Origin: Flavimobilis rhizosphaerae
GTDB lineage: Bacteria; Actinomycetota; Actinomycetes; Actinomycetales; Cellulomonadaceae
Length of the DNA: 64,000 nucleotides
Direction of reading: 5' to 3'
Assembly: GCF_014852685.1 (NCBI RefSeq)
Contig: NZ_JACZDF010000002.1
Location: forward strand, 558,001 to 622,000
Shown: positions 17,183-58,811 of the stretch, piece after piece
Layout: each line of letters starts with the position of its first letter
Position numbering within the stretch: the stretch's first letter is position 1
Program-made: the position numbers and the translations under genes
Notes under the pieces: model-generated
What the model saw: the letters and a program-made list of their open reading frames with translations, nothing else
Told to the model about the DNA's origin: nothing
The model's database searches: none

Positions 17183-17245
17183 TTCGCTAATCCCGTCGCA
17201 CTGCCGCGCCGGGTGGCGATGCTTAAGCGTTTCAAAGGAGAACGT

Positions 17246-20200: not shown

Positions 20201-21481
20201 CGCCTCGTCGTCCAGGTGCGTACGCCTGCGGGCGACGGTGGCGACGACTGGTTCTGGGACCTCCCGGTGACGACGGACGGCACGGGACCCCAGAAGGTCT
20301 TCCTGTCGTTCGATGACGCACGGGTCACCTACCCGGCGGGTGTCGCCGACTCCGAGCGGCTGACGAAGAAGCAGCTCGCGTCGATCATGGAGTTCGTCCT
20401 GCGGGTTGACCGCCTCGACGACGCCGCACCGACGGGCACGATCCTCATCGACGACCTCCGGGTCGGTGCGCCCGCGGGCGACGAGGGTCCGATTGAGACC
20501 GGGCCGACGCCGACGCCGACCGAGACTGGTCAGCCGACGCCGACGCCGACGGAGACGAGCAAGCCGACGCCGACTCCGACGGAGACGAGCAAGCCGGAGC
20601 CGACGGAGACGAGCAAGCCGTCGGCAGCAGCCAGCACGGTGAAGCTCTCACCGGCGATGCTCACGACCCGTGCTGGTGTGCGTCCCACGTGGACCGTCAC
20701 GGTGAAGTCCGCCGGTGCGGTTGATGGTGGCACGGTCACCCTCCGTGCGGGCACAACGAAGCTCGGTACGGCCAAGGTCGTGCGCGGTACGGCGAAGGTC
20801 AAGCTCAGCGCCGCTGCCGTTGCGCGCGTCGGCAACCGGAACGTCGTTGCTTCCTTCGCAGGCACGAAGACTGCTGCGGCTGGGAGCGCGAAGGGCACGC
20901 TTCGCGTCGTGCGCGCCACGGCGAAGGTCAAGGTGACCTCGCTCAAGACGACCGTGGGTGCGCGTCCCGTCATCAAGGTGAAGGTCACCTCGACCGTTGC
21001 CCCGACGGGCCGTGTGGACGTCTACGCCGGTAAGAAGAAGGTCGGCACGGCGAAGGTCACCAAGGGCGTGGCACGCGTCAAGCTCGCCAAGAGCGTGACG
21101 ACGAAGCCGGGCAAGGTTGCGCTCACCGTGAAGTACCGCGGCTCGGCACAGGTCGCGCCGAAGACGACGAAGGCGCGTCTTGCGGTGGCGAAGGCGCGCA
21201 CCCGCGTCGGTGTCAACGCCCCTGCCATGAAGGTCGGTCAGGACGCCTACGTCAAGGTCTCCGTCCGTGGCACGGGCGGTCAGCGGCCGAGCGGGAAGGT
21301 CGTCATTCGCTTCGACGGACGCCCGATCGCGACCGTCAACCTCTCGGGAACGTCGTCGAAGGCGACGTTCACGGTGCGGGTGCGGACTTCGCGCGTTGGT
21401 CAGCGCACGATCACCGCCACCTACTCGGGCAACGCGAAGCTCGCGCAGGCGACGGGGACGGACGTCACCACCGCACGTTGA
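17246..21481 (+). CDS. Secreted multidomain GH26 beta-mannanase
   Basis: A 1411-residue exported glycoside hydrolase. The signal peptide is about 1-32 (cleavage after AVAA). The GH26 domain is about 52-425, with the acid/base Glu214 in RPFHESNGSWFWWG and the nucleophile Glu324 in AFTEFG, as in beta-1,4-mannanases. A beta-rich module follows (about 427-515), then three related CBM-like domains beginning DDFE/DNFD (about 525-692, 703-890 and 899-1075; copies 2 and 3 are most alike). A Pro/Thr/Glu linker of PTPTET repeats (about 1087-1127) precedes three Lys/Val-rich Ig-like repeats to the end, probably for wall association; no LPxTG is visible. GTT valine codons are much more frequent than in neighbouring genes, hinting at separate ancestry. 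Confidence 0.92.
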   Translation: MQTAFQRATRHGVAVIAAAALALTGAGVAVAAPDDTPGAGLRVADPGASAQTLSLFDYLADSGRGGILFGQQHAVTESYSPATTGPDGESLRSDVYAGLSDLPAVFGFDTLALRGEEKPGVEGASSEENVANLAAAFVRADALGAIPTLSAHMPNFVTGGRYNDTEGRVVSQILPGGEKNADYNAYLDLIAATAKSSERTDGTLVPIIFRPFHESNGSWFWWGAAHTSSGEIQEIFRYTVEYLRDVKGVNNFLYSWSPNGTFAGDASRYLATYPGDDFVDILGYDAYEGSEGGGTAAWSATIVNDLRMIVTQAEARGKVAAFTEFGRNGDRAITASGNAEIEFFTTLFDAIHSDSVASKIAYMQTWANFPGQYYVPPPAYGEVDAHDMWADFAEFAADDATLFASDLDLADVHGRTVTAAPHASALRLVSPAAGVRITDTTVTVRAKATGPGADTATATFTALGTNVPLTLDAATGFLTGTWEIDPADLSNATRSVTLTGTVGGEEFSDDTLVVLGDLPTFPRGTIDDFEGYGDDDALRAAWTTNNAGSEIIALADRGSDGQGVTYSYDFTSRSYQGFGRAYAPAQNFSGFEGLGLTVGSDGSGHKLVVQIKAGGISFEAYPSLATAGTTDVQIPWTEFAPAPWDTANAGAQLTQTRLARVTEYFTYLNDGGESLPRTGDLVIDDIVAYGEGEFVDPGTGAVEPALVDNFDSYEDTAALQAAWGNNGIQEWGDGLQMELAPERGTDGSNAAAFVFDLTDTGLQRDSRWYGGTDWAGRTHFSGRIDVDGATQGLLVQFRTPSNPGGGEDWFWNLPVVVNPGEGWQDFSLAFDDAVVSWPEGVDPDARPTATQLARINEVMLGVTLTDGEGAKTGTIYLDDLRADGATTVPEPEIEDAAARVLDDFESYADDAAVATTWNNRGAQDWADGIQLGLAPTGGSNGSKAGAFRYDLTDRSDNSEAQWLGGASFAGLEGIGLFVDPQGSTQRLVVQVRTPAGDGGDDWFWDLPVTTDGTGPQKVFLSFDDARVTYPAGVADSERLTKKQLASIMEFVLRVDRLDDAAPTGTILIDDLRVGAPAGDEGPIETGPTPTPTETGQPTPTPTETSKPTPTPTETSKPEPTETSKPSAAASTVKLSPAMLTTRAGVRPTWTVTVKSAGAVDGGTVTLRAGTTKLGTAKVVRGTAKVKLSAAAVARVGNRNVVASFAGTKTAAAGSAKGTLRVVRATAKVKVTSLKTTVGARPVIKVKVTSTVAPTGRVDVYAGKKKVGTAKVTKGVARVKLAKSVTTKPGKVALTVKYRGSAQVAPKTTKARLAVAKARTRVGVNAPAMKVGQDAYVKVSVRGTGGQRPSGKVVIRFDGRPIATVNLSGTSSKATFTVRVRTSRVGQRTITATYSGNAKLAQATGTDVTTAR

Positions 21482-26536: not shown

Positions 26537-27208
26537 ATGACCGACACCGATGAGCGCACCAACGTCGTCGACGAACACCTCGTCGACGAGCACCCCGTCG
26601 ACGAGCGCCCGCGAGGCTTCCGCCACTCGCGCGGCTGGATCTTCGGCACGATGCTGCTCTCCGCGCTGCTCTCGCTCACCGCGTCGTTCGTGCTGTCCCG
26701 CGACGCGATCGTGCTTGCGGGCAACCCCGACGCGACGTTCGGCTGCGACATCAACTCCGTCCTCTCGTGTAGCAGCGTCGGCCTCTCGTGGCAGGCGTCG
26801 GTCTTCGGGTTCCCCAACGCGTTCCTCGGGATGATCTGCGAACCGGTCGTCATCACCATCGCGGTCGCGAGCCTCGGCGGCGTCCGCTTCCCCCGCTGGT
26901 TCATGTTCTCCGCGCAGGTCGTCTACCTCTTCGGCCTCACCTTCGCGCTCTGGCTGTTCTCGCAGTCGATGTGGGTCATCGGGGCGCTGTGCCCCTGGTG
27001 CCTCGTCATCACGGTCGGCACGACGCTCGTCTTCATGACGCTGCTCCACCACAACATCCTCGAGGACAACCTCTACCTGCCGCCTGCCGCCCAGCGGCGC
27101 GCACTGACCTTCGTGAGGTCGGGGGCCGACGCCTACCTCGCCGCTGGGATCGTCGTCATCATCACAACCCTCATCGTCGCGAAGTACGGCACACTGATCC
27201 TTGCGTGA
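26537..27208 (+). CDS. Vitamin K epoxide reductase (VKOR) family protein
   Basis: Membrane quinone-linked oxidoreductase that reoxidises DsbA-like thiol oxidases in actinobacteria. 223 residues with four to five hydrophobic helices. One cysteine pair is Cys70/Cys78 in FGCDINSVLSC and the quinone-side pair is C152-P-W-C155, the classic VKOR arrangement. The N-terminal tail is an acidic VDEHLVDEHPVDERP repeat. The ATG at 26537 has GGAGGG upstream. The partner oxidase is not in this window. It may serve folding of exported proteins such as the mannanase; that is inference. Confidence 0.92.
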   Translation: MTDTDERTNVVDEHLVDEHPVDERPRGFRHSRGWIFGTMLLSALLSLTASFVLSRDAIVLAGNPDATFGCDINSVLSCSSVGLSWQASVFGFPNAFLGMICEPVVITIAVASLGGVRFPRWFMFSAQVVYLFGLTFALWLFSQSMWVIGALCPWCLVITVGTTLVFMTLLHHNILEDNLYLPPAAQRRALTFVRSGADAYLAAGIVVIITTLIVAKYGTLILA

Positions 27209-27257
27209 GCCGTACGGTCCGGCTCGCGGGCCGGAAGCTGACAGGGAGAACCGCGAC

Positions 27258-28508
27258 ATGAGCTCACGTGCGCAGACCGCGCGAGCGCGCACGACGACGA
27301 CTCGGAAACCGCGTGACCCGTGGCCCGACAACGCGCGGTTCATCGCGGCGCTCCTCATCGTCATGATGCACTTCGGTGACCAGGTGCCGGGCAAGAGCGA
27401 CCTCCTCGAGCACGTCTTCTTCCTCACCTGGCCCGCGCGCGTCCCGCTCTACGCGCTGCTCGCCGGGTACTTCTCCGACGCGTCGCCGTTCACGCGGCGC
27501 AGGGCCGTCGGGCTCGTCCGCAACGTGCTTCTCGTCTACCTGTGCTTCGAGATGTTCGCGACCATCCACAAATGGCTGCTCGGGGGACGTTTCGCGTTCG
27601 ACCCAGGGACTCCGTCGCTTGCACTGTGGTTCCTCCTCTCGCTCTTCGTCTGGCGCGCGATCCTGCCGCTGCTCGCGACGATCCGCTGGATCGTCCCGCT
27701 GAGCGTCGTCGTCGCGCTCGTGGCCGGGTTCGCGCCGTCGATCGGCCCGGCCGGGTCGATCAGCCGGACCGTCGCGTTCCTGCCCGTGTTCCTGCTCGGC
27801 TGGAAGCTCCGGCAGCACGGTCTCCGCGAGGTCCTCGACCGCACCTGGGTGCGCTGGGCAGCTGCGGGCGTCCTGCTCGTGTGGAGCGCTGCGATCGTCG
27901 CGATCCTCGCGGACGGCGACCTCAAGCGCCGATGGTTCAGCATGGTGAAGCCGTACGCACAGTCGAACCTCATCGGTGACCTCGAGGCTCGCACCCTCGT
28001 GCTCGTCGGCGGGGGGATGCTCGCGGCGCTCGCGGTCCTCGCCCTGGCGCCGCGCTCGCGACTGCCCTGGATCTCGTACCTCGGCACCGGGTCGATGTAT
28101 ATCTACCTCCTTCACCCGTTCCTCGTGCGCCAGGCGGTCGACGCAGGGCTTCTCGAGCGCCTCGACTCGCGCACCGACGTCGTGCTCATGCTCGCAGGCA
28201 CCGCCGTCGTTGGCGCGCTCCTCGCAACCCCGCCCGTCCGCCGCCTCCTGCGACCTATCATCCAGCCGACCTACACGTGGCTCTTCCTCCCTGAGCCCTC
28301 GGCGCCCCGCCAGGACCCACCAGTGACGGAGTCGGCGCGGCCGAGCGCGCACGACACGTCGGTCTCCGGGTCGACCTCGTCGCCCACGAACGTGCCGACG
28401 GAGAACCTCGACAACGTCGCCGTCGCCGGTCACGCCGTGTCAGCCGTTCACCTCGACGACGCTCCCGCGTCACACGCACCTCGACCGGAGGACCCGCACC
28501 GGTCGTAG
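27258..28508 (+). CDS. Membrane acyltransferase (acyltransferase 3 family)
   Basis: 416 residues with about ten hydrophobic helices. It opens with DPWPDNARFIAALLIVMMH, where the family's catalytic-type His follows the first helix, and has an FSDASPFTRRR loop and a late YIYLLHPFL helix. Such proteins transfer acetyl, succinyl or other acyl groups onto surface polysaccharides. The last 80 residues are a polar Ser/Pro/Thr-rich tail. It is clearly paralogous to the protein at 37266 (same opening, same HP-L helix), and the two flank the sugar-polymer genes. The start is the ATG with AGGGAG upstream. Confidence 0.88.
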   Translation: MSSRAQTARARTTTTRKPRDPWPDNARFIAALLIVMMHFGDQVPGKSDLLEHVFFLTWPARVPLYALLAGYFSDASPFTRRRAVGLVRNVLLVYLCFEMFATIHKWLLGGRFAFDPGTPSLALWFLLSLFVWRAILPLLATIRWIVPLSVVVALVAGFAPSIGPAGSISRTVAFLPVFLLGWKLRQHGLREVLDRTWVRWAAAGVLLVWSAAIVAILADGDLKRRWFSMVKPYAQSNLIGDLEARTLVLVGGGMLAALAVLALAPRSRLPWISYLGTGSMYIYLLHPFLVRQAVDAGLLERLDSRTDVVLMLAGTAVVGALLATPPVRRLLRPIIQPTYTWLFLPEPSAPRQDPPVTESARPSAHDTSVSGSTSSPTNVPTENLDNVAVAGHAVSAVHLDDAPASHAPRPEDPHRS

Positions 28509-28511
28509 CGT
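28506..28511 (+). promoter_or_regulatory. -10 element (TAGCGT) overlapping a stop codon
   Basis: The TAG stop of the acyltransferase gene is the first half of this hexamer, which ends 6 nt before the GTG of the GT2 gene. The downstream gene can therefore be transcribed leaderless from the end of the upstream gene. Confidence 0.55.
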
Positions 28512-28517
28512 CGGGGC

Positions 28518-29774
28518 GTGACCCGGACCGACGCCGAGGAGCGGCGCACGAACGCTCCCGAGGCCTGCAGCACGCCCGCCACCGCACCCGAGGTCGAGAA
28601 CGACCTCGCGCCGGACCACGCACCTGCGGACGGGCCGTGTACCCCGAACGGGCTGCCGAGCGCACCCACGGCGCGGGTCGTCACGACGACGGCGCCCCGG
28701 CCCCGTGCCGGTGGCCCCCGCGCGCCGCGGACGTCGCCCTCGCGTGCCCCTGCGGAAGGCAGCGCGTGGCCCGCGGTCTCCGTGTTCGCGACCGTGCGCA
28801 ACGAGGAGCAGCACCTGCGCCGCGCATTCACGTCCGTGCTCACCCAGGACTACCCGGGCGACCTCGAGGTCGTCGTCGCCGTCGGGCCGTCGCGCGACGA
28901 CACGTACGGGATCGCGGCTGAGGCGGTGCGGGCTGACAGCCGCGTGCGCATCGTCGAGAACCGTACGGGTCTCATCCCCGACGGCCTCAACGTCGCGATG
29001 CGCGCGTGCGACCCGCGCTCCGAGATCCTCGTCCGCTTCGACGGGCACACCGCGCTCCCCGCCGGCTACGTGCGTGACGCTGTCCGCATCCTTCTCGACA
29101 CGCGCGCCGACAACGTCGGGGGCCTCATGGTGCCGCGCGGTGACGGGGCGACGCAGCGCGCGGTTGCGATCGGTATGTCGCACCCCGTCGGGATCGGTCC
29201 CGCCCCGTTCCACGTCGGCGGGGTCGCGGGACCGAGCGAGACCGCCTACCTCGGTGCGTTCCGCCGCGAGGCCGTCGAGCGTGCCGGGGGTTACGACGAG
29301 CTCTTCGAACGCGCTGAGGACTGGGAGCTCAACCTCCGGATCAGGCGGGGCGGGGGCCTCGTGTGGTTCGATCCCGCACTCGTCGTCGAGTACCGTCCGC
29401 GCGCGTCCTACAGGGCGCTCGCGCGGCAGTTCTGGTCGACCGGACGATGGCGCCGCGAGGTCGTGCGTCGTCACCGCGGCACTGCGTCGATGCGGTACCT
29501 CGCGCCGCCGCTCACCGTCCTCGCGCTCCTCGCGGGCCTCGTGGTCGCGGCTGCGGGCGTGTACGCGGCTGCCGTCGGCGCCGCCTGGGCGCCGTGGCTG
29601 CTCACACTCGGGGCGCTGCCGTGGCTCGGATACGGCCTCGTCGTCGTCGGCGGTGCGCTCGTCGCGGGCCGCGGGCACCCGTGGCGCGTCGTCGTGAGGC
29701 TCCCTGCGGTGCTCGCGACGATGCACCTCACGTGGGGCGCGGGCTTCCTCCGGGGGATCGACACGCCGAGGTAG
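28518..29774 (+). CDS. Family 2 glycosyltransferase, membrane-bound (ExoA-like)
   Basis: 418 residues. A low-complexity Ala/Pro-rich head of about 85 residues precedes the GT-A domain: VSVFATVRNEEQHLRRAFTSV, a VRFDGHTALP segment in place of DxD, and the acceptor/base region RAEDWELNLRIR. Two or three membrane helices follow at about 325-400. The order is that of succinoglycan-type ExoA transferases working on lipid-linked sugars. It has its own leaderless promoter and is convergent with the nonulosonate glycosyltransferase operon, so it may belong to the same polymer. Confidence 0.87.
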   Translation: MTRTDAEERRTNAPEACSTPATAPEVENDLAPDHAPADGPCTPNGLPSAPTARVVTTTAPRPRAGGPRAPRTSPSRAPAEGSAWPAVSVFATVRNEEQHLRRAFTSVLTQDYPGDLEVVVAVGPSRDDTYGIAAEAVRADSRVRIVENRTGLIPDGLNVAMRACDPRSEILVRFDGHTALPAGYVRDAVRILLDTRADNVGGLMVPRGDGATQRAVAIGMSHPVGIGPAPFHVGGVAGPSETAYLGAFRREAVERAGGYDELFERAEDWELNLRIRRGGGLVWFDPALVVEYRPRASYRALARQFWSTGRWRREVVRRHRGTASMRYLAPPLTVLALLAGLVVAAAGVYAAAVGAAWAPWLLTLGALPWLGYGLVVVGGALVAGRGHPWRVVVRLPAVLATMHLTWGAGFLRGIDTPR

Positions 29775-29889
29775 GTTGTCTCGCTGGCCTGAGCGGCGCG
29801 TCGTCCGCGAGGGAGAGGCCGTCTGTGACCGGTTCGCGGCCGGCGCCCCTGGGCGCAGCCCGGACCGCAGCCGGAACCCGGGGCAGGGC

Positions 29890-31239
29890 CTACGGGCGGG
29901 CCGCTGCCAGCGACCTCCGGACGCGCCCCGGAAGGTCGAGCACCGCGAGGAGCCACTGCGGTGCCTGCGATCGGACGAACGTCCGCATGAGCCGGCGCCG
30001 GACCCTGCCGAGGACGACGCCGCGCGTGCGGCGCGTGCGCGGCGGAGTGAGCCCGCCCCTGCGGCGGGCCGCCGCGAGCTGGACGATCGCGTCGGGCAGC
30101 TCGCTCGGGGTGTCGTGGAGGTAGTTGTCCTCGAGCCACCGTGGGTCGGGCACCCCGAAGCGTCCGGCGGCCAGGTCGTCGAGCGTGCCGAGGCAGCCCG
30201 AGCCGAGGAACACCGCGTTGAGCATGCGTTCGTTGACGCCGAAGTCCTCGAGGACGAGTGTGGGGATGCCAGCGGCGAGCGACTCCAGGGCCGCTGTCGA
30301 CGACACCGTGACGAGCGCCGATCCCGGACCGAACTGGTCGGCGAGCGGCCCGGTCGCGACCCGGACCGCCCCGGAGGGGACGCCACCGGCCGCGACGAGG
30401 TCCGCGAGGAGGACGTCGAACGGGAACGCCTCGTGGTGCGTCTGCGCCTCGCCTGCGAGCCCGCGCACCTTGACGACGACGTCGACGTCGGGGCGGTCGT
30501 CCGCGAGACGGGCGAGGGCGTGGAGGATCTGCTCGCGGTGCGCTCGCGTCACGGGCATCTTCGCCTGGGGTGCGAAGACGACGCGGGAGAGCGCGGGGGA
30601 GGTGCGGCCGTCGTCCGTCGACCGTGACGGGCCTGTCGCGCCCGACGCGCCTGACGACACCGACGTGCCCGATGACACCGGCGCGCCCGGCGGCGACGGC
30701 GCGAGGAACGGCAGCGGCGCGAGCAGGACGGGCAGGTCGAGCCCCAGCTGGGCCGCGACCGCGGCGAACTCGCGTCGCTCCCGCAGGGAGTGCACGACGA
30801 ACGCATCCTGCCCCGCCCGGAAGCGCAACGCCCGGAGCGTCGCCGGGTACGACATGCCGGGCAGACCACCGGCGAGAGCGGGCCGACGGCTGCCGCCGAC
30901 GCGCTCGACGAGCCGGACGACGAGCTCCGCGACGGGGCCTGTCGCGGAGAGCAGCACGACGTCGGGATCCGTCGCTCGCAGGTGCGCGCACAGCGCCCGG
31001 GGCGTGAGGACCGGGACGTCGGCGTCCGCGAAGGGCGTGCCCGTGACCGCCGCGGCTCGCTGGTCGGCCGACGGCAGGATCGGCGACCTCAGGAGCACGA
31101 GGTCGAGCGTCGCGTCGTCGGAGAGCGTCGCGAGCGTCGACGCCCCCCACTTGAGGTACGAATCCGAGTCGGCGACCGCGAGCACACGGACGGACGTCGT
31201 GGTGGCGGGAGCGAGCTGGACTCCGGTGCTGAGGGTCAT
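29890..31239 (-). CDS. Putative GT-B glycosyltransferase (DUF6716-like)
   Basis: 449 residues, last gene of the minus-strand operon. It begins VRVLAVADSDSYLKW and has a Rossmann-like N-terminal half (residues about 1-200). A low-complexity Ser/Gly/Ala linker (about 225-250) is followed by a second domain starting FAPQAKMPVTRAHREQILHA. The GT-B style sugar-nucleotide site is VTVSSTAALESLAAGIPT, followed by ED-GVNE. This resembles actinobacterial DUF6716 glycosyltransferases and, more distantly, CMP-sugar transferases. Its ATG overlaps the stop of the upstream gene (ATGA). The donor is inferred to be a CMP-nonulosonate from the operon; not proven. Confidence 0.72.
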   Translation of the reverse strand: MTLSTGVQLAPATTTSVRVLAVADSDSYLKWGASTLATLSDDATLDLVLLRSPILPSADQRAAAVTGTPFADADVPVLTPRALCAHLRATDPDVVLLSATGPVAELVVRLVERVGGSRRPALAGGLPGMSYPATLRALRFRAGQDAFVVHSLRERREFAAVAAQLGLDLPVLLAPLPFLAPSPPGAPVSSGTSVSSGASGATGPSRSTDDGRTSPALSRVVFAPQAKMPVTRAHREQILHALARLADDRPDVDVVVKVRGLAGEAQTHHEAFPFDVLLADLVAAGGVPSGAVRVATGPLADQFGPGSALVTVSSTAALESLAAGIPTLVLEDFGVNERMLNAVFLGSGCLGTLDDLAAGRFGVPDPRWLEDNYLHDTPSELPDAIVQLAAARRRGGLTPPRTRRTRGVVLGRVRRRLMRTFVRSQAPQWLLAVLDLPGRVRRSLAAARP

Positions 31240-32312
31240 GCGGGTCGCGCCTCCGAGGGCATCGTCGGGTTCTCGGGTGCCGCGGTGGCGTCCCCCGGTG
31301 AGCGGCGCTGCCGTGGCCGCGCCGTCCCGGGGCCGTCGGCGAGGCGGGCACGCGGCTGATCGAGGTGGGCCCGTAGCGCGGGTGGGACCTTCGCGGTCCA
31401 CCACGCGTCGGGGACGGCCTGTGCGTCGACGTCGACGCCGTCCTCGACGAGCGCGGCACCGATCGTCAGGAGGACCGACGTGGGCAGCGACACGACTCGT
31501 CGGACGCCGTTCCCGGGCCGGAGCCGCAGCTCGGCCGGCAGGGGCACGGTGTCGGTCCGCACTCCTCGCCGCGCGAGTGCTGCGAGCCGCGACGCGGGTT
31601 CACGACGGTGCGCGAGGTACCGGACGGTGCCTCCTGCAGACAGCGCGTCGTCGACCGTGCGGGTGAGCCAGTCGTCGTAGGCGTCCGCTGCGATGAGACC
31701 GTCGTCGGCGAGTGCTGAGCCCAGCACGACGACGTCCTCGGTGACGGGTGCTCCCACGTCGAGGGCTCGTACGTGTCCGAGCGTGTGCTGCGCGACGACG
31801 ACTCCCTCACGGGCGAGCGCGACACGGTCGTCGTCGGGCACCCCGACGCACGTGCGGAGCGTCAGACGCCGGGCGCCCGCCTGCCGCGCAAGAGTCGCGG
31901 ACGCCACGGCGCCCAGCACCCGCCTCCGAAGGGCAACCGGAACGTGCGCGCGCACGAGCGGGGCCCGTCCGAGAAGGGCATCGACGACGAGACGGGTCGC
32001 GGTGCCGTCGTCGACGAGCACAATCTCGGAGGGGCGTCCGGGAAGGAGCAGCCGCGCTTGCGCGACGCCGGAGAGCGGGTCGCCCAGCACGAGGATGTCG
32101 GCAGGCTCGATCATGGCGCGTCGGGCCGCCCCGGGGCCTGTCGGCGCGGACACGAGCAGCGTAGGAGACAGGTGGGTGGCGAGCGCCCGGAACGTCGCCC
32201 GGGCAGGGTCGGTCCGCACGACGGCGGTCACTGGGTCGAGCGATCCCGCGAGGAGTGCGTCGACGAGCCCCAGGACCTGCAGCGGTGACTCGACGAGCGC
32301 GAGCCCCGTCAT
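31236..32312 (-). CDS. Polysialyltransferase-like glycosyltransferase (1)
   Basis: 358 residues. The opening LALVESPLQVLGLVDALL and the central VLVDDGTATRLVVDAL are hallmarks of the bacterial polysialyltransferase / GT52-like group that uses CMP-sialic acid. The C-terminal third carries LRLRPGNGVRRVVSLPTSVL, where family members have the donor-binding HP/SS-type motifs. The last 45 residues are disordered and rich in Arg, Pro and Ala. The start is the ATG overlapping the stop of the upstream gene. It may build or cap the nonulosonic acid chain. Confidence 0.68.
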   Translation of the reverse strand: MTGLALVESPLQVLGLVDALLAGSLDPVTAVVRTDPARATFRALATHLSPTLLVSAPTGPGAARRAMIEPADILVLGDPLSGVAQARLLLPGRPSEIVLVDDGTATRLVVDALLGRAPLVRAHVPVALRRRVLGAVASATLARQAGARRLTLRTCVGVPDDDRVALAREGVVVAQHTLGHVRALDVGAPVTEDVVVLGSALADDGLIAADAYDDWLTRTVDDALSAGGTVRYLAHRREPASRLAALARRGVRTDTVPLPAELRLRPGNGVRRVVSLPTSVLLTIGAALVEDGVDVDAQAVPDAWWTAKVPPALRAHLDQPRARLADGPGTARPRQRRSPGDATAAPENPTMPSEARPA

Positions 32313-33811
32313 GGCTCCCGCCGCGGCGCGTCGCCCGCACGCATGAGGCGGAGAGCGGTCCGGAGGCCTCGGCCGCGCCGCGGGACTGCCGCGGAGCGGT
32401 CCGGTGCGGTCGGCACGGGCACGGGCACGGGCACCGGCGCCGGCATGGCCGCGGGGCCTGGCGTCGGGGGCGGCACGTCGGTCACGGCACCGTCGCGGGC
32501 AGCGACGAGCCTCAGCCGTTCGACGCGTCGCCGACGTATCCATCGGCGCCACGGCGGACGCCCCTCGTCGTCCGTGCCCTGCATGGACGTGAGCACGGCG
32601 ACGGCGGCCGGCCGCAGGTGAGGGACGCGGTCCGGGTGCATGACGTACGTGACGGCCTCGACGAGCCGGACCACGTCGGCTGTCGACGGTTCGGGACCCG
32701 TGGCGAGCAGGCGGTCCGTCACGGTGAGGGCCGTGCGTGCGGGGTGGTGGTACGGGGTGAGCGCGTCGAGCACCTCGGCGGTGCCGACCGCACGCACGTC
32801 GCGCGCCCCGAGCGCGAGCGCCGTGACGAGGGCGGTCGACGCGGTCCCGACGACGAGCCTCGGCGCGTCGCGGACGACGACGACCTCTGCGGGTACGTCT
32901 GCGCTCGACATCGTGACGTCGAGGTGAGCGGCCCGCAACGTCCGGACGGTGCGACGCACCTGGGTCGGCGTCGCGCGTGGGTGGACGACGAGCGTGACGT
33001 CATCGAGCCCGGCGGCCCCGATCTCGATGGCCGCGAGCTCTGCGAGCCTCTCGGCGAGCGCGCCGAGCTCACCAAGGCCTCCCGCGCCCGTGGACGCGGG
33101 ATCGTCACCGTCGTGGCCGAGGTCCTCGGGCGCGTCGACGATGAGCAGGGCCGTGCTCGTGCCGTCCCCGTTGGTGCCCGAGCTGCGTGCGGTCCGGTCA
33201 GGTGCCGAGTGGTTCGGCGCGACGTCGCGTGCGGTCTCCACGACGACGTCGACGAGACGTCGCGCGGGCACGAGGACCGTCCGGGTGCCGTGCTCGTCGT
33301 ACGCGTGCGGCAGCAGCCCGGGGAGGAGCTCGGGCGCGACGAGTGCGTCGACCCGTGCGGGCAACCCGTCCCGCAGCGCCGTCCGTGGCGGTGCCCATCG
33401 TTCGAGACGGTCGGCGACGAGCGTGAGGCGCGCGTGAGGCAGGACGCGCGTGAGCGCCCGGCCCGGCCCCTGCGCCGGGTCGGCGAGCACGAGCGTGACG
33501 GGGCCGTCACCGAGCTGCCAGTGCTCGCGGAGGAGACGCTCCCAGACTGGTTGTTCGTCCCGTCGTGGGACGAACGTCGCGGGCCGCAGCGGTGCGATCG
33601 TCGCCGTCCAGCTGACGATGCGGTCGGTGCGGCGCGCCAAGGCTCCGAGCGCCGCGTTCGCCGCGAGCTCGGGCCCCGTCTCGGGGACGGGGACGATGTC
33701 GGCGAGGACGACGACGCGCCCGTCGGGGGCGGGAGGGAGAGCGCCGTGGTCGATCGCTGCGGCGAGCAGCAGCATCTGACGGGGAGAGGTGACGACGAGC
33801 AGCTGCGTCAA
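32309..33811 (-). CDS. Polysialyltransferase-like glycosyltransferase (2), TTG start
   Basis: 500 residues beginning LTQLLVVTSPRQMLLLAAAI, the same kind of N-terminal strand-helix as the next protein. It continues with DLGHDGDDP-type loops and a C-terminal sugar-nucleotide region LVVGTASTALVTALALGA that closely matches the ASTAL element of alpha-2,8-polysialyltransferases. The tail (about 430-500) is Arg/Pro-rich with a PVPVPVP run. I place the start at a TTG (33811-33809) overlapping the previous TGA, with GGAG 6 nt upstream (33818-33821); no ATG or GTG fits before the conserved strand. Donor and linkage are inferred from the operon. Confidence 0.68.
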   Translation of the reverse strand: MTQLLVVTSPRQMLLLAAAIDHGALPPAPDGRVVVLADIVPVPETGPELAANAALGALARRTDRIVSWTATIAPLRPATFVPRRDEQPVWERLLREHWQLGDGPVTLVLADPAQGPGRALTRVLPHARLTLVADRLERWAPPRTALRDGLPARVDALVAPELLPGLLPHAYDEHGTRTVLVPARRLVDVVVETARDVAPNHSAPDRTARSSGTNGDGTSTALLIVDAPEDLGHDGDDPASTGAGGLGELGALAERLAELAAIEIGAAGLDDVTLVVHPRATPTQVRRTVRTLRAAHLDVTMSSADVPAEVVVVRDAPRLVVGTASTALVTALALGARDVRAVGTAEVLDALTPYHHPARTALTVTDRLLATGPEPSTADVVRLVEAVTYVMHPDRVPHLRPAAVAVLTSMQGTDDEGRPPWRRWIRRRRVERLRLVAARDGAVTDVPPPTPGPAAMPAPVPVPVPVPTAPDRSAAVPRRGRGLRTALRLMRAGDAPRREP

Positions 33812-34854
33812 CGTGAGCTCCGGGAGGGTGCCGGGCCGTCGGCCCGTGCGGGTGGGCGCGACGCGTCCGTGGCGGTCGGGTCGCCGAGAAGCAGTGCTCG
33901 TCGGCGGGGCGCGAGGTCGCGGAGCGTCGCGCTGACGACCTCGGGAGGCGCGATCGCCAGCGTCACGTCGACGCCGTCGCGCAGCTCGGCGGCGAGTGCG
34001 GGGTTGACGTCCGCGAGCCGCGCGAGGTGGTGGCATGCCATCGCGAGCAGCTGCCGGACAGCCTTCGCCCAGTGCCGCTCGTGGGCGGGTTCACGCCGGA
34101 CGAGGAGGAAGATCTCGCGATACGCGTGGATGACGTCGAGCTGCCGTCGGTCGAAGACACGGGTGAGCGACGTCGGGGTGCCCCGCCGGTAGAAGGCCCC
34201 GAGGCCGCCGACGACCGCCCAGGTCCGCGCGTGCAGGTGCATGCGCCAGATCCATGCGCGGTCCTCCGCGGTGTGCAGACCTGCGACGAAGCCGAGGAGC
34301 CCCTCGTCGTGCAGACGGCCGTCGTAGAGGCCGAACGGTACGAACGGGTAGTCGACGGGCGTCGTGAGGTGGGCAGGGCCGATGCCGTCGCGGGGGTCGA
34401 GGACGAGGTCGCGCCTGTGCTCGGGCACCGCGTGCACCGACCGGGCGCCGTGGTCGTCACGCACATGGTCGCACCGGAGGAAGTCGACGCCGAGGTGCTC
34501 GAGGGCGTCGCTGAGATGCTGCAGGTGTCCGCGTGCGAACCAGTCGTCGGGGTCGAGGAACGCGACGTGGCGTCCGCGCGCGAGCGCGAGCCCCGTGTTG
34601 CGGGCGTTCGCGACGCCCGTCGGGGTGTCGTTACGGACGAGCTCGAGCCGGGCGAATCGTCCCGACATCTCCTCGACGATGTCCCCGGTGCCGTCGACCG
34701 ACCCGTCGTCGACGACGATGACCTCGAGCTCGCGCGGGTCGTCGAGCTGACGGGTCAGGCTCGTGAGCGCAGCCTCGACGTGCTCGGCCTGGTCCCGCGC
34801 CGGGACGACGACGCTCACGCGCGGTCGTCCCGACGCGGGCAGCGGGTGCGTCAT
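33808..34854 (-). CDS. Family 2 glycosyltransferase
   Basis: 348 residues, soluble GT-A enzyme. VSVVVPARDQAEHV opens the Rossmann part, IVVDDGSVDGT binds the nucleotide, and FLDPDDWF contains the metal-binding DxD-type motif. The acceptor region includes EDRAWIWRMHL. A teichoic-acid-type C-terminal helical region follows. It starts 2 nt after the neuB stop and overlaps the next gene, so it is part of the NulO operon. It probably transfers a linking or side-chain hexose, not the nonulosonate. Confidence 0.88.
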   Translation of the reverse strand: MTHPLPASGRPRVSVVVPARDQAEHVEAALTSLTRQLDDPRELEVIVVDDGSVDGTGDIVEEMSGRFARLELVRNDTPTGVANARNTGLALARGRHVAFLDPDDWFARGHLQHLSDALEHLGVDFLRCDHVRDDHGARSVHAVPEHRRDLVLDPRDGIGPAHLTTPVDYPFVPFGLYDGRLHDEGLLGFVAGLHTAEDRAWIWRMHLHARTWAVVGGLGAFYRRGTPTSLTRVFDRRQLDVIHAYREIFLLVRREPAHERHWAKAVRQLLAMACHHLARLADVNPALAAELRDGVDVTLAIAPPEVVSATLRDLAPRRRALLLGDPTATDASRPPARADGPAPSRSSR

Positions 34855-34856
34855 AC

Positions 34857-35759
34857 TCAGGCGTCGACGCGACGCAGTCGCGAGAGCGGTGCGAGCTCGC
34901 CCGGGAAGATGCGCTTGACGCCGTCGCCCATGGCCTTCTCGATGATGCGGATGTCACGCACGAGGTGGGAGAGGCCGGTCGGCTCGAGCGACGAGGCCTG
35001 GTCGGAGCCCCACATCGTGCGGTCGAGCGTGATGTGGCGTTCGACGGTGACGGCGCCGAGCGCGACCGCCGCGACCGAGATCTGCAGGCCGCGCTCGTGG
35101 CCCGAGTAGCCGACGGGCACGCCGTAGCGCTCGGCGAGCGTCGCGATGGTCCGGAGGTTCGCCTCCTCGGGCGGCAGCGGGTACGTCGACGTCGCGTGCA
35201 TGAGGACGAGGCGTGACGTGCCGAGCGTCTCGACGGCAGTGTCGATCTGCTCGAGCGTCGACATGCCCGTCGAGAGGATGATCGGCTTGCCCGTCGCCTC
35301 GAGCGCGCGGAGCAGCTCGAGGTCGGTGACGGACGCGGACGCGACCTTGTGGGTGACGACGCCGAGGTCCTCGAGGAAGTCGACCGACGGCACGTCCCAC
35401 GGGGACGCGAACCAGTGCAGGCCGCGGTCCGCGGCGTGCTGCGCGATCTTCTCGTACGCACCGCGGTCGAGCTCGACGCGGTAGCGGTAGTCGAGGTACG
35501 TCATCTCGCCCCACGGGGTCGAGCGGATCTGGTCGCGCTGCGCGGCCGGCGTGCAGATCTCCGGAGTGCGCTTCTGGAACTTCACGGCGTTGGCGCCGGC
35601 GTCGGCTGCGACGTCGATGAGCTGCTTGGCGATCTCGACGTCTCCGTTGTGGTTGATGCCGATCTCGCCGATGACGTAGACGGGCTGGCCGGCGCCGACG
35701 AGCTGGTCGCCGATCGCGACGGGGGCGGCGGCGGGTGCGGTGAGCGGGGACGAGGTCAT
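34857..35759 (-). CDS. neuB: N-acetylneuraminate/Kdn-type synthase lacking the SAF domain
   Basis: Condenses PEP with an N-acylmannosamine or mannose (phosphate) to a nonulosonic acid. The TIM-barrel motifs are present: GEIGINHNGD (metal and PEP), NAVKFQKR, TPWGEMTYLDYR, HKVASASVTD, STGMSTLEQI, YSGHERG and VERHITLDR. The protein stops at 300 residues, just after the barrel, whereas typical NeuB enzymes are about 335-350 with a C-terminal SAF (antifreeze-like) domain that covers the sugar site. The reading frame ends cleanly at the operon junction, so this is unlikely to be a sequencing error. The ATG overlaps the stop of neuA. Substrate uncertain: Kdn-type sugars are possible. Confidence 0.9.
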   Translation of the reverse strand: MTSSPLTAPAAAPVAIGDQLVGAGQPVYVIGEIGINHNGDVEIAKQLIDVAADAGANAVKFQKRTPEICTPAAQRDQIRSTPWGEMTYLDYRYRVELDRGAYEKIAQHAADRGLHWFASPWDVPSVDFLEDLGVVTHKVASASVTDLELLRALEATGKPIILSTGMSTLEQIDTAVETLGTSRLVLMHATSTYPLPPEEANLRTIATLAERYGVPVGYSGHERGLQISVAAVALGAVTVERHITLDRTMWGSDQASSLEPTGLSHLVRDIRIIEKAMGDGVKRIFPGELAPLSRLRRVDA

Positions 35760-37081
35760 GAGTAGCTCCTGAGCGTGGCGGCGGTCGCCGCGTGGGTGGA
35801 TGAGGCTGGAACGGGAGAGCTGGGGACGTGCGACGTGGTGCCGTGCGAGACGGGGGTGTGCTCGTCGCGGGCTGCGAGCACGAGGTCGCAGACCTCGCGG
35901 ACCGCCCCCTCGCCGCCCGCCCGCGTGAGCACGTGGCGTGCGGCCGCTCGCACCTCGGGGTGCGCGTCGGCGACGGCGACGGGCCAGCCGACGAGCGACA
36001 TCGGCGCGAGGTCGTTGACGTCGTTGCCGACGTAGACGACGCGTGCAGGGTCGAGGTCGTGCGCGGCGAGCCATGCGAGCAGGTCGCCGGCCTTGTCGTC
36101 GCTCCCGTGGACGACGTCGACGCCGAGCTTGCGGGCGCGCGCAGCGACGACGCCGTCGCGCTCGGTCGACAGGACGAGGAACGGGACGCCTGCGCGCCGC
36201 ACCCGGGCGACGCCGAGCCCGTCGCCCCGATGGACGCGGACGTGCTCGGTGCCGTCGGCCGCGACGGACGCACGATCGTCGGTGTGAACGCCGTCGAAGT
36301 CGGTGACGATCGCGTCGACGTCGAGGTGCGGCGCGGACGACGGGTCGAGGAGATGCGCGGCGACGGCGCGAGCGTGGGCGAGGTCCGCGGGCGTGTCGAT
36401 CTCCATCGACGTGAGCCCGCGGACCTCATGGAGCGCGATGTGGCCGAAGAAGCGGTTGCGGTGCTCGCGCAGACCTGTCGTGCGCATCGCGTAGAACGCG
36501 CCGGTCTCTCGCAGCTGCGGCGGCAGGTCCTGACGGCGCGGCCGGTGCGAGGCGTCGTGCCCGACGGGCGACGCGACGCCGTCAGCGTCGTGCGTCCACC
36601 GGAAGCTGTGGTCCTCGGTCGCGGCGAGCACGACGTCCGCCGCGTCGTCGGCGACACGGTGCACCGCGACGGCAAGGTCGAGCGGATCGAGGAACGGGCT
36701 CGTCGCCTGGACGAGCACCGTCACGGGCGGCAGAGCCTCGCCGTGCGCGTCGAGCTGGTCGAGCACGTGGAGCACCACGCCCTCTGAGCCGGCCGTGTCC
36801 GTCGCGAGCCCGGAGGGCCGGCGGACGACACGTGCGCCATGACGGGCAGCCTCGACCGCGATCTCCTCGTCGTCCGTCGACACGACGACGGGGCCGACGC
36901 CCGCGCTGAGCGCGGAGCGCACCGCGCGGGCGACGAGGCTCCTGCCCGCGACACGTTCGAGGTTCTTGCGCGGGATGCCGCGCGACCCGCCGCGGGCGGG
37001 GATGACGACGACGGCGAGCGGCACGTCGTCCGGGAACCGGTCGGGACCGTGCCCGACACGACCAGATGAGTTGACTGTCAC
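35756..37081 (-). CDS. neuA: CMP-nonulosonate cytidylyltransferase fused to KdsC-like HAD phosphatase
   Basis: A 441-residue bifunctional protein. Domain 1 (about 22-245) is an acylneuraminate cytidylyltransferase: VVIPARGGSRGIPRKNL (CTP loop), QATSPFLDP, GAFYAMR and the metal-binding EIDTPADL. Domain 2 (about 255-410) is a cap-less HAD phosphatase of the KdsC/9-phosphate phosphatase type: VTDFDGVHTDD, LSTERD, the Lys of DDKAGDLL, and VGNDVNDL. The fusion fits a route in which the synthase makes a 9-phosphate that is dephosphorylated and then activated to the CMP sugar. I choose the GTG at 37081 because a TAGCGT hexamer lies 7 nt upstream. First gene of a six-gene operon with 4-nt overlaps. 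Confidence 0.9.
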   Translation of the reverse strand: MTVNSSGRVGHGPDRFPDDVPLAVVVIPARGGSRGIPRKNLERVAGRSLVARAVRSALSAGVGPVVVSTDDEEIAVEAARHGARVVRRPSGLATDTAGSEGVVLHVLDQLDAHGEALPPVTVLVQATSPFLDPLDLAVAVHRVADDAADVVLAATEDHSFRWTHDADGVASPVGHDASHRPRRQDLPPQLRETGAFYAMRTTGLREHRNRFFGHIALHEVRGLTSMEIDTPADLAHARAVAAHLLDPSSAPHLDVDAIVTDFDGVHTDDRASVAADGTEHVRVHRGDGLGVARVRRAGVPFLVLSTERDGVVAARARKLGVDVVHGSDDKAGDLLAWLAAHDLDPARVVYVGNDVNDLAPMSLVGWPVAVADAHPEVRAAARHVLTRAGGEGAVREVCDLVLAARDEHTPVSHGTTSHVPSSPVPASSTHAATAATLRSYS

Positions 37082-37088
37082 GTCGCCG

Positions 37089-37094
37089 ACGCTA
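37089..37094 (-). promoter_or_regulatory. -10 element (TAGCGT) of the nonulosonate operon
   Basis: Minus-strand hexamer 7 nt before the neuA GTG. The same hexamer TAGCGT precedes the divergent acyltransferase (37254-37259) and the GT2 gene at 28518, so the genes of this locus may share promoter strength or control. Confidence 0.6.
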
Positions 37095-37253
37095 GGAGCG
37101 TCGGGTGTCGGGACGGTGAGGCGGAGGTGACCGCGCGACGGCGGGCACACGGCGTCGCGACGCCACGTTGACCGCCGGCGACGCAGCGTTGAACAGGGCG
37201 GGAACCTTGGCCGGACGTGCAGGGCGGAGCGACTCCTGGGCGAGCGGGGACCC

Positions 37254-37259
37254 TAGCGT
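37254..37259 (+). promoter_or_regulatory. -10 element (TAGCGT) of the second acyltransferase
   Basis: Ends 6 nt before the GTG at 37266. Together with 37089-37094 it makes a divergent promoter pair separated by about 160 nt. Confidence 0.6.
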
Positions 37260-37265
37260 GCCACC

Positions 37266-38675
37266 GTGAGACCTCGTCTTCCAGGTGCCCCGGGCGCTGC
37301 GTCCCGTGCCGTCGCGCGCGGTGCTCGCGACCCGTGGGCCGACAACGCGCGTCTCGTCGCGGCAACCCTCATCGTTGTCATGCACCTGCTCGAGCCCGTG
37401 CTTGCACGCTCGAGCACCGCGACGAGTCTCTACTGGGCGACGTGGCCGCTCCGCGTTCCGGTGTTCGTCCTCGTCGCCGGGTACTTCTCTGATGCGCGGC
37501 CGCTGGACGACCGCAGGATCGTCGTCCTCCTCCGCAACGTCCTCGGCGTCTACCTCGTGTGGGACATCGTCGCGTTCCTGCGGCGGGGGATCGTCGACGA
37601 CCTGTGGCGCTACGAACCTGCCTATCCCTCGTTTGGGCTGTGGTTCCTCCTCGCGCTCCTGTGGTGGCGTCTCATGCTTCCTCTGCTCGTGCGCGTCCGT
37701 GGTGCGGGTGCGCTCGTGTGGGTGCTCGCGCTCGGCGCGGGCTTTGTCCCGCAGCTCGGTCAGGCGTTCGCCGGCTCGCGGACGTTCGTGTACCTGCCGT
37801 TGTTCTGGCTCGGATGGCGACTGCGGCAGCGCGGTGCGCGTGGGGCGCTGGGGACGGTGCGGGCCCGAGTCGTCGGGGCCGTCGGGCTCGCGGTCGCGGG
37901 CGGCGGGATGCTCGTGCTCTCGCAGCGGTTCGGACGGGGTGTGCTGAGGTTCGCGGGTCCGTACGGGGGCGGGTGGGAGCAGCAGCTCGGCGAGGCAGGT
38001 CTTCGCGGCCTCGTGCTCGTCCTCGGGACGGTCGGGGCGCTCGGCGCGCTCGCGCTTGTGCCGGTCACCCGGGTGCCGTGGTGGACGACGCTCGGTGCGG
38101 GGTCGATGACCGTGTACGTCGTGCACCCGGTGCTCGTGCAGCATGCGAAGAGCGTCGGGGTGTTCGACGCGGTGCGCGAGCCGGCGGACCTCGTCGCGCT
38201 CGTCGTGGTCGGGGTCGGGCTCACCCTGGCGCTCGCGAGCCCGCCTGTGCGGGCCGTGCTCCGGCCGCTCGTGCAGCCCCGCGGAACATGGTGGCTCGCG
38301 CCGCCGCCGGGGTCGTCCGTGGCTGTCGGTGCGCCAGATCCTGCGTCTGTGCGTGGTCCTGCGTCCGCACCTGATCCTGCTCCTGCTCCTGCTCCTGCGC
38401 CTGCGCCTGCGCCTGCGCCTGCGCCTGCGCCTGCGCCCGCGCCTGATCCTGCGCCTGCGCCGGTGCGTGCTTCCGCGGCCGTCCGCGCTCCCGCGGGCTC
38501 ATCTGCACCTGCTCCCGCGCCGGCACTGCCGACGGTGCTGGCGCACTCGACCGCGCCACTGTCGCGTGGGCGTCCGCAGCGTTCAGCGGCGGGCGCTCCA
38601 CCGCCACGCGTCGCTGTCGAGGCCATAGGGCCGGGCGCCGCGGATGCCGCGGTCCCGTCCCCAGACGGGGGTTGA
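37266..38675 (+). CDS. Membrane acyltransferase (acyltransferase 3 family) with Pro-Ala tail
   Basis: 469 residues. The first 350 form about ten hydrophobic helices with DPWADNARLVAATLIVVMH at the start, FSDARPLDDRR after helix 2 and VYVVHPVLV near the end, closely matching the paralogue at 27258. The tail is a long Pro/Ala-rich region made of PAPAPA repeats. It probably acylates the polymer made by the divergent nonulosonate operon. Its last 93 nt overlap, on the opposite strand, the end of the acyl-CoA carboxylase epsilon gene. Confidence 0.88.
   Translation: MRPRLPGAPGAASRAVARGARDPWADNARLVAATLIVVMHLLEPVLARSSTATSLYWATWPLRVPVFVLVAGYFSDARPLDDRRIVVLLRNVLGVYLVWDIVAFLRRGIVDDLWRYEPAYPSFGLWFLLALLWWRLMLPLLVRVRGAGALVWVLALGAGFVPQLGQAFAGSRTFVYLPLFWLGWRLRQRGARGALGTVRARVVGAVGLAVAGGGMLVLSQRFGRGVLRFAGPYGGGWEQQLGEAGLRGLVLVLGTVGALGALALVPVTRVPWWTTLGAGSMTVYVVHPVLVQHAKSVGVFDAVREPADLVALVVVGVGLTLALASPPVRAVLRPLVQPRGTWWLAPPPGSSVAVGAPDPASVRGPASAPDPAPAPAPAPAPAPAPAPAPAPAPDPAPAPVRASAAVRAPAGSSAPAPAPALPTVLAHSTAPLSRGRPQRSAAGAPPPRVAVEAIGPGAADAAVPSPDGG
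38371..38463 (+). repeat. CCTGCG/CCTGCT hexamer repeats inside the acyltransferase gene
   Basis: About fifteen near-identical hexamers encode the Pro-Ala tail. Being a multiple of three, copy-number change would keep frame; the tract is likely to be length-variable between strains. Confidence 0.75.
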
Positions 38676-45234: not shown

Positions 45235-45969
45235 CTACCCCTCGGTGTCGAGGAGCCTCGCGTCGTTCTCGCTCACCCGGCCGACGCGCGAGGAGACGGG
45301 GTGCCACACGAGCTCGGGTGCGTCGGAGAGTGCCAGGTCGAGCGCTTCGCGGCCGTCGGTCGAGGGGTCGAGCCAGCCGTCGAGCGTCGTGTCCGTGAGC
45401 ATGACGGGCGTGCGGTCGTGGATGTCGGCGAGCTCGCCGGTGGCGGCGCGCGTGAGGATGGTGCATGTGACGAGCCACCGGGCCGGGTCGTCGTCGGGGA
45501 GGTCCTTGTCGCGCCAGAACTCGTAGAGCCCCGCGAGGGCGGCGACGGAGCCGTCGGCGGGGTGGATGTAGAACGGCTGCTTGGCGGGCCTCGGGCCGTC
45601 GTCGAGCTTGCGCCATTCGTAGTAGCCGTCGGCGGGCACGACGGCGCGGCGGGAGGCTACGGCGCGCTTGAAGGACGGCTTCTCGAGGACCGTCTCGGAG
45701 CGTGCGTTGAGGAGTCGGGCGCCGCCGCTCGGGTCGCGCGCCCACGACGGGACGAGGCCCCAGCGGGCGGTGCGCAGCTGGCGGACGGGAGGTGCGTCGG
45801 GGGTCTCGCGCGGGGCGCGTTCGACGATCATGCGGACGTCGTGGGTGGGGGCGACGTTCCACGATGCGCGCCACTCGCGGAGCTCGTCGTCGAGGGGCAG
45901 CGTCGGGTCGATCATGAAGGCGTCGAGGAGGTCCTGGGTCGCCCGGGCCGAGGCGAAGCGTCCGCACAT
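45235..45969 (-). CDS. SOS response-associated peptidase (YedK/HMCES)
   Basis: Forms a covalent thiazolidine crosslink to abasic sites in single-stranded DNA to shield them. 244 residues starting MCGRF, with the catalytic Cys2 exposed after Met removal. NVAPTH, ARWGLVPSWA, NARSETV, CxVPADGYYEW-type VVPADGYYEWRK (catalytic Glu) and the final HPVSSRVGR are all present. A CACAGT hexamer lies 6 nt before the ATG. No LexA box was seen here. It is divergent from the MFS gene. Confidence 0.94.
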   Translation of the reverse strand: MCGRFASARATQDLLDAFMIDPTLPLDDELREWRASWNVAPTHDVRMIVERAPRETPDAPPVRQLRTARWGLVPSWARDPSGGARLLNARSETVLEKPSFKRAVASRRAVVPADGYYEWRKLDDGPRPAKQPFYIHPADGSVAALAGLYEFWRDKDLPDDDPARWLVTCTILTRAATGELADIHDRTPVMLTDTTLDGWLDPSTDGREALDLALSDAPELVWHPVSSRVGRVSENDARLLDTEG

Positions 45970-46027
45970 GCGTCCACTGTGGCACGTGGCACGGACACCG
46001 ACCGCGGAAACCGGTGTCTCGAAACGA

Positions 46028-46033
46028 TATGAT
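46028..46033 (+). promoter_or_regulatory. -10 element (TATGAT) of the MFS gene
   Basis: Near-consensus hexamer 6 nt before the GTG at 46040, in the 70-nt gap shared with the divergent YedK gene. Confidence 0.65.
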
Positions 46034-46039
46034 CTCGTG

Positions 46040-58586: not shown

Positions 58587-58811
58587 GTCGCGTCCCTCCG
58601 TCGTCGTCACGGCACTGCGCCGCGTCCTCCTCTCCCAATGCTCGTCCCGTCGTGGGCATTCCCGGCACCACCGGGTGGTGACGCCGGGCACGTCCCTGCC
58701 GTCCCGGTGGCAGCCTCCGTCGCCACGTCGTCGCCCTGGGCGCTGCAGCGGACGACGACGACCGGTGGGCGGGCGACCGCGGATCTGCGCGGCGGCCGCG
58801 CGCGGGTCGCG

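Follow-up and report, generated by a model that had tools for sequence, protein, structure and literature searches.

Which sugar is made by the nonulosonic acid locus of Flavimobilis rhizosphaerae, and in which polymer does it end up? The window analyzed here is a stretch of 64,000 nucleotides (G000:C14:558001-622000) from a 3.06-Mb genome of 21 contigs. Searches with Pfam and NCBIfam models delineate an operon of six minus-strand genes, from about 37081 to 29890: a cytidylyltransferase fused to a haloacid dehalogenase-type hydrolase (NeuA-HAD), a NeuB-type synthase (NeuB), a family 2 glycosyltransferase (GT2), a gene of the polysialyltransferase family (PST), a gene that has no Pfam family (g5) and a DUF6716 gene. 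According to our in silico analysis, this operon probably makes a Kdn-type teichulosonic acid, that is, a phosphate-free acidic wall glycopolymer, by way of a 9-phosphate. This route is favored by the residues of the HAD half, by a NeuB that lacks the SAF domain and is changed on its ligand side, by the proximity of HAD genes to such synthases and by the fusion in one frame. What is newer here is the SAF-less class of synthase, along with its fusion to HAD and NeuA in a single frame; our searches of open papers turned up no description of either.

The synthase ends before the SAF domain

The short NeuB (300 aa), a feature absent from the initial annotation of this DNA, stops before the C-terminal SAF (antifreeze-like) domain, as do its counterparts in all loci (81/81, window copy included). 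It scores 266 bits against the NeuB model TIGR03569, whose curated cut-off is 399.65, and the SAF domain with its Arg314 is absent. E25, Q55, K129, Y186, S213, H215, E234, H236 and D247 are kept in the NeuB relatives, while on the ligand side N74W, T110S, F112W and N184S distinguish 98/98 relatives from meningococcal NeuB. In this mapping of the active site, the comparison column of other sequences comprised 12 rows, one of them the window. According to the sections cited, Arg314 of the SAF domain contacts N-acetylmannosamine (ManNAc) in meningococcal NeuB and positions its N-acetyl group, and the R314A variant is inactive (PMC6795526); the SAF arginine matters in Caulobacter NeuB too, as the excerpt cited has it (PMC7591256).

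The length of the synthase goes along with a nearby HAD gene. An HAD gene was found within 1.5 kb in 18/22 loci whose NeuB lacks a SAF-length tail (window included) versus 0/8 longer-tailed ones (Fisher p 8e-5, with SAF presence judged by length and relatedness not corrected). Three further sites in the source genome encode a SAF domain. A frameshift that would have cut NeuB short was considered and rejected, given that the end point is the same throughout the 81 loci.

Outside the actinobacteria, on a Methylomagnum plasmid (L123, 1880-7492), the gene of a 301-aa NeuB relative (57%) precedes a HAD-IIIA gene; the cluster further has split transketolase, class III aminotransferase and short-chain dehydrogenase/reductase genes. 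For a relative on a Hymenobacter plasmid, the annotation shows no recognizable NeuB partner. A region from Nonomuraea gerenzanensis bears no annotation.

A phosphatase fused to the cytidylyltransferase

The first gene of the operon combines two domains. Its cytidylyltransferase half (about 36365-37012) matches CTP_transf_3 at E 7.7e-22 and its HAD half (about 35867-36310), of KdsC/Kdn-9-phosphate type, matches Hydrolase_3 at E 6.7e-8. The catalytic set of the HAD half is complete, with equivalents of D10, D12, K80, D104 and D107 (the Asp pair, the motif III Lys and acidic motif IV). The HAD half also bears residues of the Kdn-9-phosphate phosphatase type: E56 and K67 of the Bacteroides enzyme 3e81 are each kept in 97/98 rows (two of which are window copies), at positions where a solved KdsC has R and A.

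A nonulosonic acid of the legionaminate or pseudaminate type, supplied by a UDP-sugar pathway encoded elsewhere, is in our view a very unlikely alternative. The PseF model does match the NeuA half (E 1.8e-30) and the PseI model reaches 219 bits on NeuB, both below cut-off, but on NeuB the NeuB model scores higher than PseI. No match of the PseB, PseC, PseG or PseH type was listed for the ten proteins scanned from operon and flanks, the genome not having been searched for pseudaminate or legionaminate genes. Moreover, free-sugar NeuB enzymes of this type are not known to need a 9-phosphatase, which counts against this reading.

In 45/79 relatives that have both parts, one open frame of 681-938 codons from stop to stop spans NeuA, HAD and NeuB; the window row was left out of this count, and locus L079, at a contig end, has no NeuA. 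Of these relatives, 42 are Streptosporangiaceae-type genomes and 3 are Cellulomonadaceae (L010, L050 and L059), families that, except for Nonomuraea, we assume from the genus names. Two one-frame proteins were checked with Pfam, which bore out their domains; NeuB may also start internally within the shared frame.

We see about an even chance that SAF-less nonulosonate-9-phosphate synthases form a separate class in actinobacteria, in most cases coupled to an E/K-type HAD phosphatase and a cytidylyltransferase. In Streptosporangiales and some Cellulomonadaceae the three would be merged into one trifunctional enzyme that turns mannose-6-phosphate, phosphoenolpyruvate and CTP into CMP-Kdn, and it would be the loss of the SAF arginine that turns the synthase away from N-acetylated substrates and toward plain mannose ones.

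Sugar supply and the choice between Kdn and sialic acid

In the pathway that we infer, NeuB would condense mannose-6-phosphate with phosphoenolpyruvate to Kdn-9-phosphate, the HAD half would strip the 9-phosphate and the NeuA half would activate Kdn to CMP-Kdn. The initial annotation had argued for this route from the lack of NeuC or any other ManNAc source. Such a gene is indeed missing from the scanned genes of the operon and its flanks, but the claim does not extend to the genome, where three epimerase-type genes occur, so that a genome devoid of ManNAc sources was rejected. While that argument fails, the proposal of a Kdn teichulosonic acid made via a 9-phosphate is favored by evidence that the initial annotation lacked: the likeness to Streptomyces, the E56/K67 pair, the missing SAF arginine and the frame shared in many relatives. 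A ManA-type gene is also present, detected by the catalytic-domain model PF20511 (PF01238 gave no match). With both ManNAc sources and a ManA-type gene in the genome, supply does not decide the sugar.

The same operon and the same 9-phosphate chemistry could instead serve N-acetylneuraminic acid (Neu5Ac). ManNAc-6-phosphate from NanE or a ManNAc kinase would then yield Neu5Ac-9-phosphate and a polymer resembling polysialic acid. The epimerase-type genes of the genome speak for this alternative, including a NanE gene at G000:C15:406828 that adjoins a ROK-kinase-like gene (named by eye), and so does PF07388, the family of the PST, which is named for alpha-2,8-polysialyltransferases. We nevertheless consider it unlikely: the scan of operon and flanks showed no ManNAc gene, Arg314 is gone with the SAF domain, all four ligand-side residues are replaced and the Streptomyces counterpart yields a Kdn polymer.

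Two further regions hold related genes. At L086:8474-13138, a UDP-GlcNAc 2-epimerase-family gene lies near a look-alike of a WecC-type dehydrogenase (by eye), which hints at a second polymer, one containing ManNAcA. At L087:7813-18986, genes for a GntR-type regulator, NanE, a ROK kinase, a LacI-type regulator, a sugar-binding protein and an AGE-family epimerase stand together; all but NanE and AGE were named by eye.

Conservation of the gene set

A scan of named genomes with NeuB gave at least 542 confirmed matches, of which the best 80 were kept. Among the matches listed, the closest is that of Sanguibacter hominis (89%). At a BLAST threshold of E 1e-4, the 80 loci hold NeuB (80), NeuA-HAD (79), GT2 (76), PST (74), DUF6716 (70) and g5 (69), and all six genes are found in 64/80 loci within fetched flanks of up to 10 kb of NeuB; some of the missing genes belong to loci at a contig end. 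In a sample of the phylum, 48/396 genomes have NeuB matches at E 1e-20.

Within the genus g9 (6.1-9.9 Mb per matched genome), 9/11 genomes listed carry NeuB at 62-65% identity; with 328 unmatched genomes outside that listing, the true total for g9 may exceed 11. In two g9 loci, GT2 and PST diverge from DUF6716, NeuA-HAD, NeuB and g5, followed by an M20 peptidase and a Bmp/ABC transporter. We take g9 to be Streptomyces, judging from this synteny and from how close its HAD is to chain 3mmz; the gene order of S. coelicolor (in part) and the organism of 3mmz are assumed here. The neighborhood comparison with teichulosonic acid clusters that the initial annotation called for was made through these streptomycete-like loci, both of which hold all six genes.

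Glycosyltransferases

The TRANSFERASES of the operon beside GT2 are g5, DUF6716 and PST. Alignments used for folding and motif counts comprised 39/69 relatives for g5, 39/68 for PST and 37/69 for DUF6716. Profile comparison gave a weak link between g5 and PST (probability 30%, E 5e-4, one pair) and none to DUF6716.

The g5 protein of the window has no Pfam match, and among the 40 alignment members only two weak, single-member matches were seen. Its AlphaFold2 model (pLDDT 85.7) finds as best PDB match the bacterial polysialyltransferase SiaD (5wcn, E 4.8e-6, TM 0.47); a Photobacterium sialyltransferase comes second, with C-glycosyltransferases and 2-epimerases close behind. Bacterial polysialyltransferases and sialyltransferases of the GT-B fold share a motif set of D/E-D/E-G and HP. 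In g5, D101-D102-G103 and H235 are invariant (40/40), with R rather than P after the histidine.

For DUF6716, the AlphaFold2 model (pLDDT 86.3) has UDP-GlcNAc 2-epimerases as top PDB matches (4fkz, E 8.8e-10), UDP-sugar transferases ranking lower; both kinds of enzyme have GT-B-type folds. The protein gave no PF02350 match, its sole Pfam family at E 0.001 being DUF6716, and our search of open papers brought up none that names this family. Because of the GT-B-type fold and the missing PF02350 match, we read DUF6716 as a putative GT-B transferase, possibly a UDP-sugar user; the model is also compatible with an epimerase-like role.

The window PST matches the Pfam family A-2_8-polyST (PF07388) at E 1.8e-5, with 24.9 bits versus a cut-off of 23.3. 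PF07388 is detected in 40/40 members of the PST alignment, window included, and the PST profile reaches SiaD at E 0.0026. The window copy departs from its family at G135R, M137E and F324A, where 39/40 rows agree, and at K275V, where 37/40 rows have K. In Sanguibacter hominis, PST aligns in its N-terminal part only and its motif is changed too; there, a single open frame of 1097 codons (L002:10871-14161) holds what is left of PST together with g5, and Pfam finds no family in it. BLAST detected no PST in L010, L050, L059, L066 and L077.

According to our model, the GT-B transferases (g5, DUF6716 and perhaps the divergent PST) and the GT2s would join Kdn with other sugars, in an order that we can only infer.

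Locus layout and flanking genes

The minus-strand operon, the gene identities and the flanking genes of the initial annotation were confirmed by Pfam and by inspection of the junctions (Table 1). Its range of 27258-38675 does contain the operon, together with two oppositely transcribed flanks. The 4-nt overlaps that it described are ATGA overlaps at three of the five junctions (NeuA/NeuB, PST/g5 and g5/DUF6716); at GT2/PST, a TTGA overlap exists only if PST starts at the TTG and not at the alternative ATG, and NeuB/GT2 has a 2-nt gap instead. A crude caller based on GC by codon position picked most genes of the locus but missed g5 and AT3b, whose status as genes therefore rests on conservation and, for AT3b, also on Pfam. 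The third-position GC of g5 is 0.70-0.86, about equal to its first-position GC.

Table 1. Positions of the operon genes and neighboring features in the window
Feature	Position	Strand	Basis and remarks
NeuA-HAD	35756..37081	-	CTP_transf_3 + Hydrolase_3 (Pfam); start codon uncertain, frame open to 37150
NeuB-type synthase, 300 aa	34857..35759	-	Pfam NeuB E 1.3e-80
GT2 glycosyltransferase	33808..34854	-	Pfam Glycos_transf_2 E 2e-26
PST, PF07388, divergent in lineage	32309..33811	-	start TTG 33811 or ATG 33775
g5 putative transferase, GT-B polysialyltransferase-like fold	31236..32312	-	AlphaFold2 model, invariant DDG + H; no Pfam model
DUF6716 putative glycosyltransferase, GT-B-like fold	29890..31239	-	Pfam E 7.2e-125, AlphaFold2 model
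AT3b membrane acyltransferase 3	37266..38675	+	Pfam Acyl_transf_3 E 1.7e-15; divergent from operon
Membrane GT2	28518..29774	+	Pfam Glycos_transf_2 E 2.7e-14; convergent with operon
AT3a membrane acyltransferase 3	27201..28508, likely start 27258	+	Pfam Acyl_transf_3 E 4.8e-21
Pho-box-like 11-bp direct repeat GTTCCC-N5-GTTCAA	37189..37205	-	10/12 core bases

The two acyltransferases are 41% identical over 342 aa. AT3b has a 53% identical copy in Sanguibacter hominis (L002), and an acyltransferase-3 gene adjoins PST in one of the two streptomycete-like loci. Each of the two has a BLAST relative in 2/80 loci. The flanking acyltransferases may O-acylate the polymer, as had been proposed earlier, but O-acylation is only suggested. 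The membrane GT2 has a homologue in 3/80 loci (L004, L006 and L050).

Possible phosphate control

The direct repeat upstream of the operon (Table 1), 17 bp in all, was compared with what we take to be the consensus of the PhoP repeat. A strict Pho-box pattern had no match within the window, after which looser scores with controls were adopted. Scores of at least 10 were reached by 22/78 operon upstream regions versus 28/711 other gene starts of the same loci, and scores of at least 11 by 4/78 versus 7/711, in related sequences with crude gene calls and no correction for phylogeny. The exact box GTTCAC-N5-GTTCAC occurs three times in the genome, and nine times with at most one mismatch (reversed control, 0). 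One of the three exact copies precedes, by about 112 bp, a PBP_like_2 gene that we read as PstS-type. Phosphate control of the operon is at most plausible.

Another exact box, L131 (G000:C20:37143-37159), lies about 160 bp before an ATG of an IMP-dehydrogenase-like gene (by eye). Elsewhere, the window encodes a large family 26 glycoside hydrolase (17213-21481) that has CBM11 and Ig-like repeats and lies close to a phosphoglucose isomerase gene, a major facilitator superfamily transporter (45668-47263), a protein with a GmrSD_C-type nuclease domain and an Excalibur domain (52848-54035), and a luciferase-like monooxygenase fused to a FAD_binding_4 domain (56307-58691).

Weighing the evidence for a Kdn wall polymer

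Several observations weigh against a Kdn wall polymer. Besides NanE, the genome has UDP-GlcNAc 2-epimerase-family and GlcNAc 2-epimerase (AGE)-family genes. For the HAD half, KdsC models of NCBIfam (101 and 82 bits) outscore the Kdn-9-phosphate phosphatase model NF058599 (75.9 bits versus a cut-off of 180), all being below cut-off, and many KdsC chains rank ahead of 3e81, which is only 13th among 17 PDB matches; that the E56/K67 pair sets the specificity of the phosphatase is our assumption. In NeuB, N74 aligns beside a gap, which makes its pairing with W uncertain. The PST looks degenerate in this lineage and may be inactive or repurposed, to judge from the lost conserved residues, the S. hominis remnant and the loci without PST. 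The name Streptomyces for g9 is likewise deduced, from the synteny and HAD closeness given above. The human synthase has a SAF domain. It also takes mannose-6-phosphate, as stated in the part cited of PMC6795526, so that a missing SAF domain is no proof of Kdn.

The last point concerns the destination of the glycan. Our scan of window genes turned up neither an LCP ligase, for which no genome-wide search was made, nor a polysaccharide exporter, as would suit a glycan carried by a protein, a lipid or a capsule. We regard such a product as very unlikely, since the Streptomyces counterpart is a wall polymer and since the gene set is a PhoP target in Streptomyces and looks Pho-activated in Planobispora rosea, as expected of a phosphate-free substitute for teichoic acid.

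If the operon does make a Kdn-type teichulosonic acid, the genetics of these polymers would extend from Streptomyces to Sanguibacter-like, Cellulomonas, Arthrobacter-type and Streptosporangiales genomes. The SAF-less NeuB and the fused E/K HAD would be sequence marks from which Kdn walls might be predicted in genome sequences, and the SAF-less NeuB offers a ready test of how NeuB chooses between mannose and N-acetylmannosamine. An enzyme that makes CMP-Kdn in one chain would, in addition, be useful as a tool.

Comparison with known systems

Bacteroides thetaiotaomicron has a Kdn pathway of the kind predicted here, with a Kdn-9-phosphate synthase, a phosphatase and a CMP-Kdn synthetase, and its phosphatase 3e81 shares E56/K67 with the window HAD. 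The three are separate proteins there, whereas phosphatase and cytidylyltransferase are fused in the window and all three parts are in frame in the 45 relatives. With Neisseria meningitidis NeuB/SiaC (1xuu, 4ipi), the window NeuB has the catalytic residues of the TIM barrel in common, but neither the SAF domain with Arg314 nor N74, T110, F112 and N184. SiaD and PF07388 resemble the operon through the g5 model and the PST members, respectively; unlike them, g5 matches no Pfam model and the window PST lacks several residues conserved in the family.

The nearest system is that of Streptomyces. The excerpts cited describe SCO4881 as the S. coelicolor NeuB and a phosphate-starvation gene (PMC2367054), SCO4873-4882 as the teichulosonic acid cluster and a PhoP target (PMC13011467, citing Ostash 2014), and the polymer as galactose and Kdn (PMC11481543, PMC7831098). 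In Planobispora rosea, counterparts of SCO4877, 4878, 4879, 4880 and 4882 are expressed like PhoP-activated genes, according to the part cited of PMC8269224, which labels them as putative genes for teichuronic acid and assigns the sialic acid synthase to SCO4880. A fused gene would explain why the synthase is SCO4880 in one source and SCO4881 in another. The P. rosea locus (L021) holds the six genes of the operon.

The window brings together NeuA, NeuB, GT2, a polysialyltransferase-like gene and DUF6716, as in clusters of the SCO4873-4882 type, a comparison made through the streptomycete-like loci and not with S. coelicolor DNA itself. With SCO4873-4882 it shares NeuB (SCO4881), GT2 (SCO4878) and further transferases; there, the product is the galactose/Kdn polymer and the cluster is a PhoP target. 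The flanks differ, SCO4873-4877 were not sought here, and all six genes lie on one strand in the window, whereas GT2 and PST diverge from the other four in the streptomycete-like loci. On the strength of the same gene set in these loci and in P. rosea, and of the Streptomyces cluster cited above, the window locus is best read as a further member of the Streptomyces kind of teichulosonic acid cluster.

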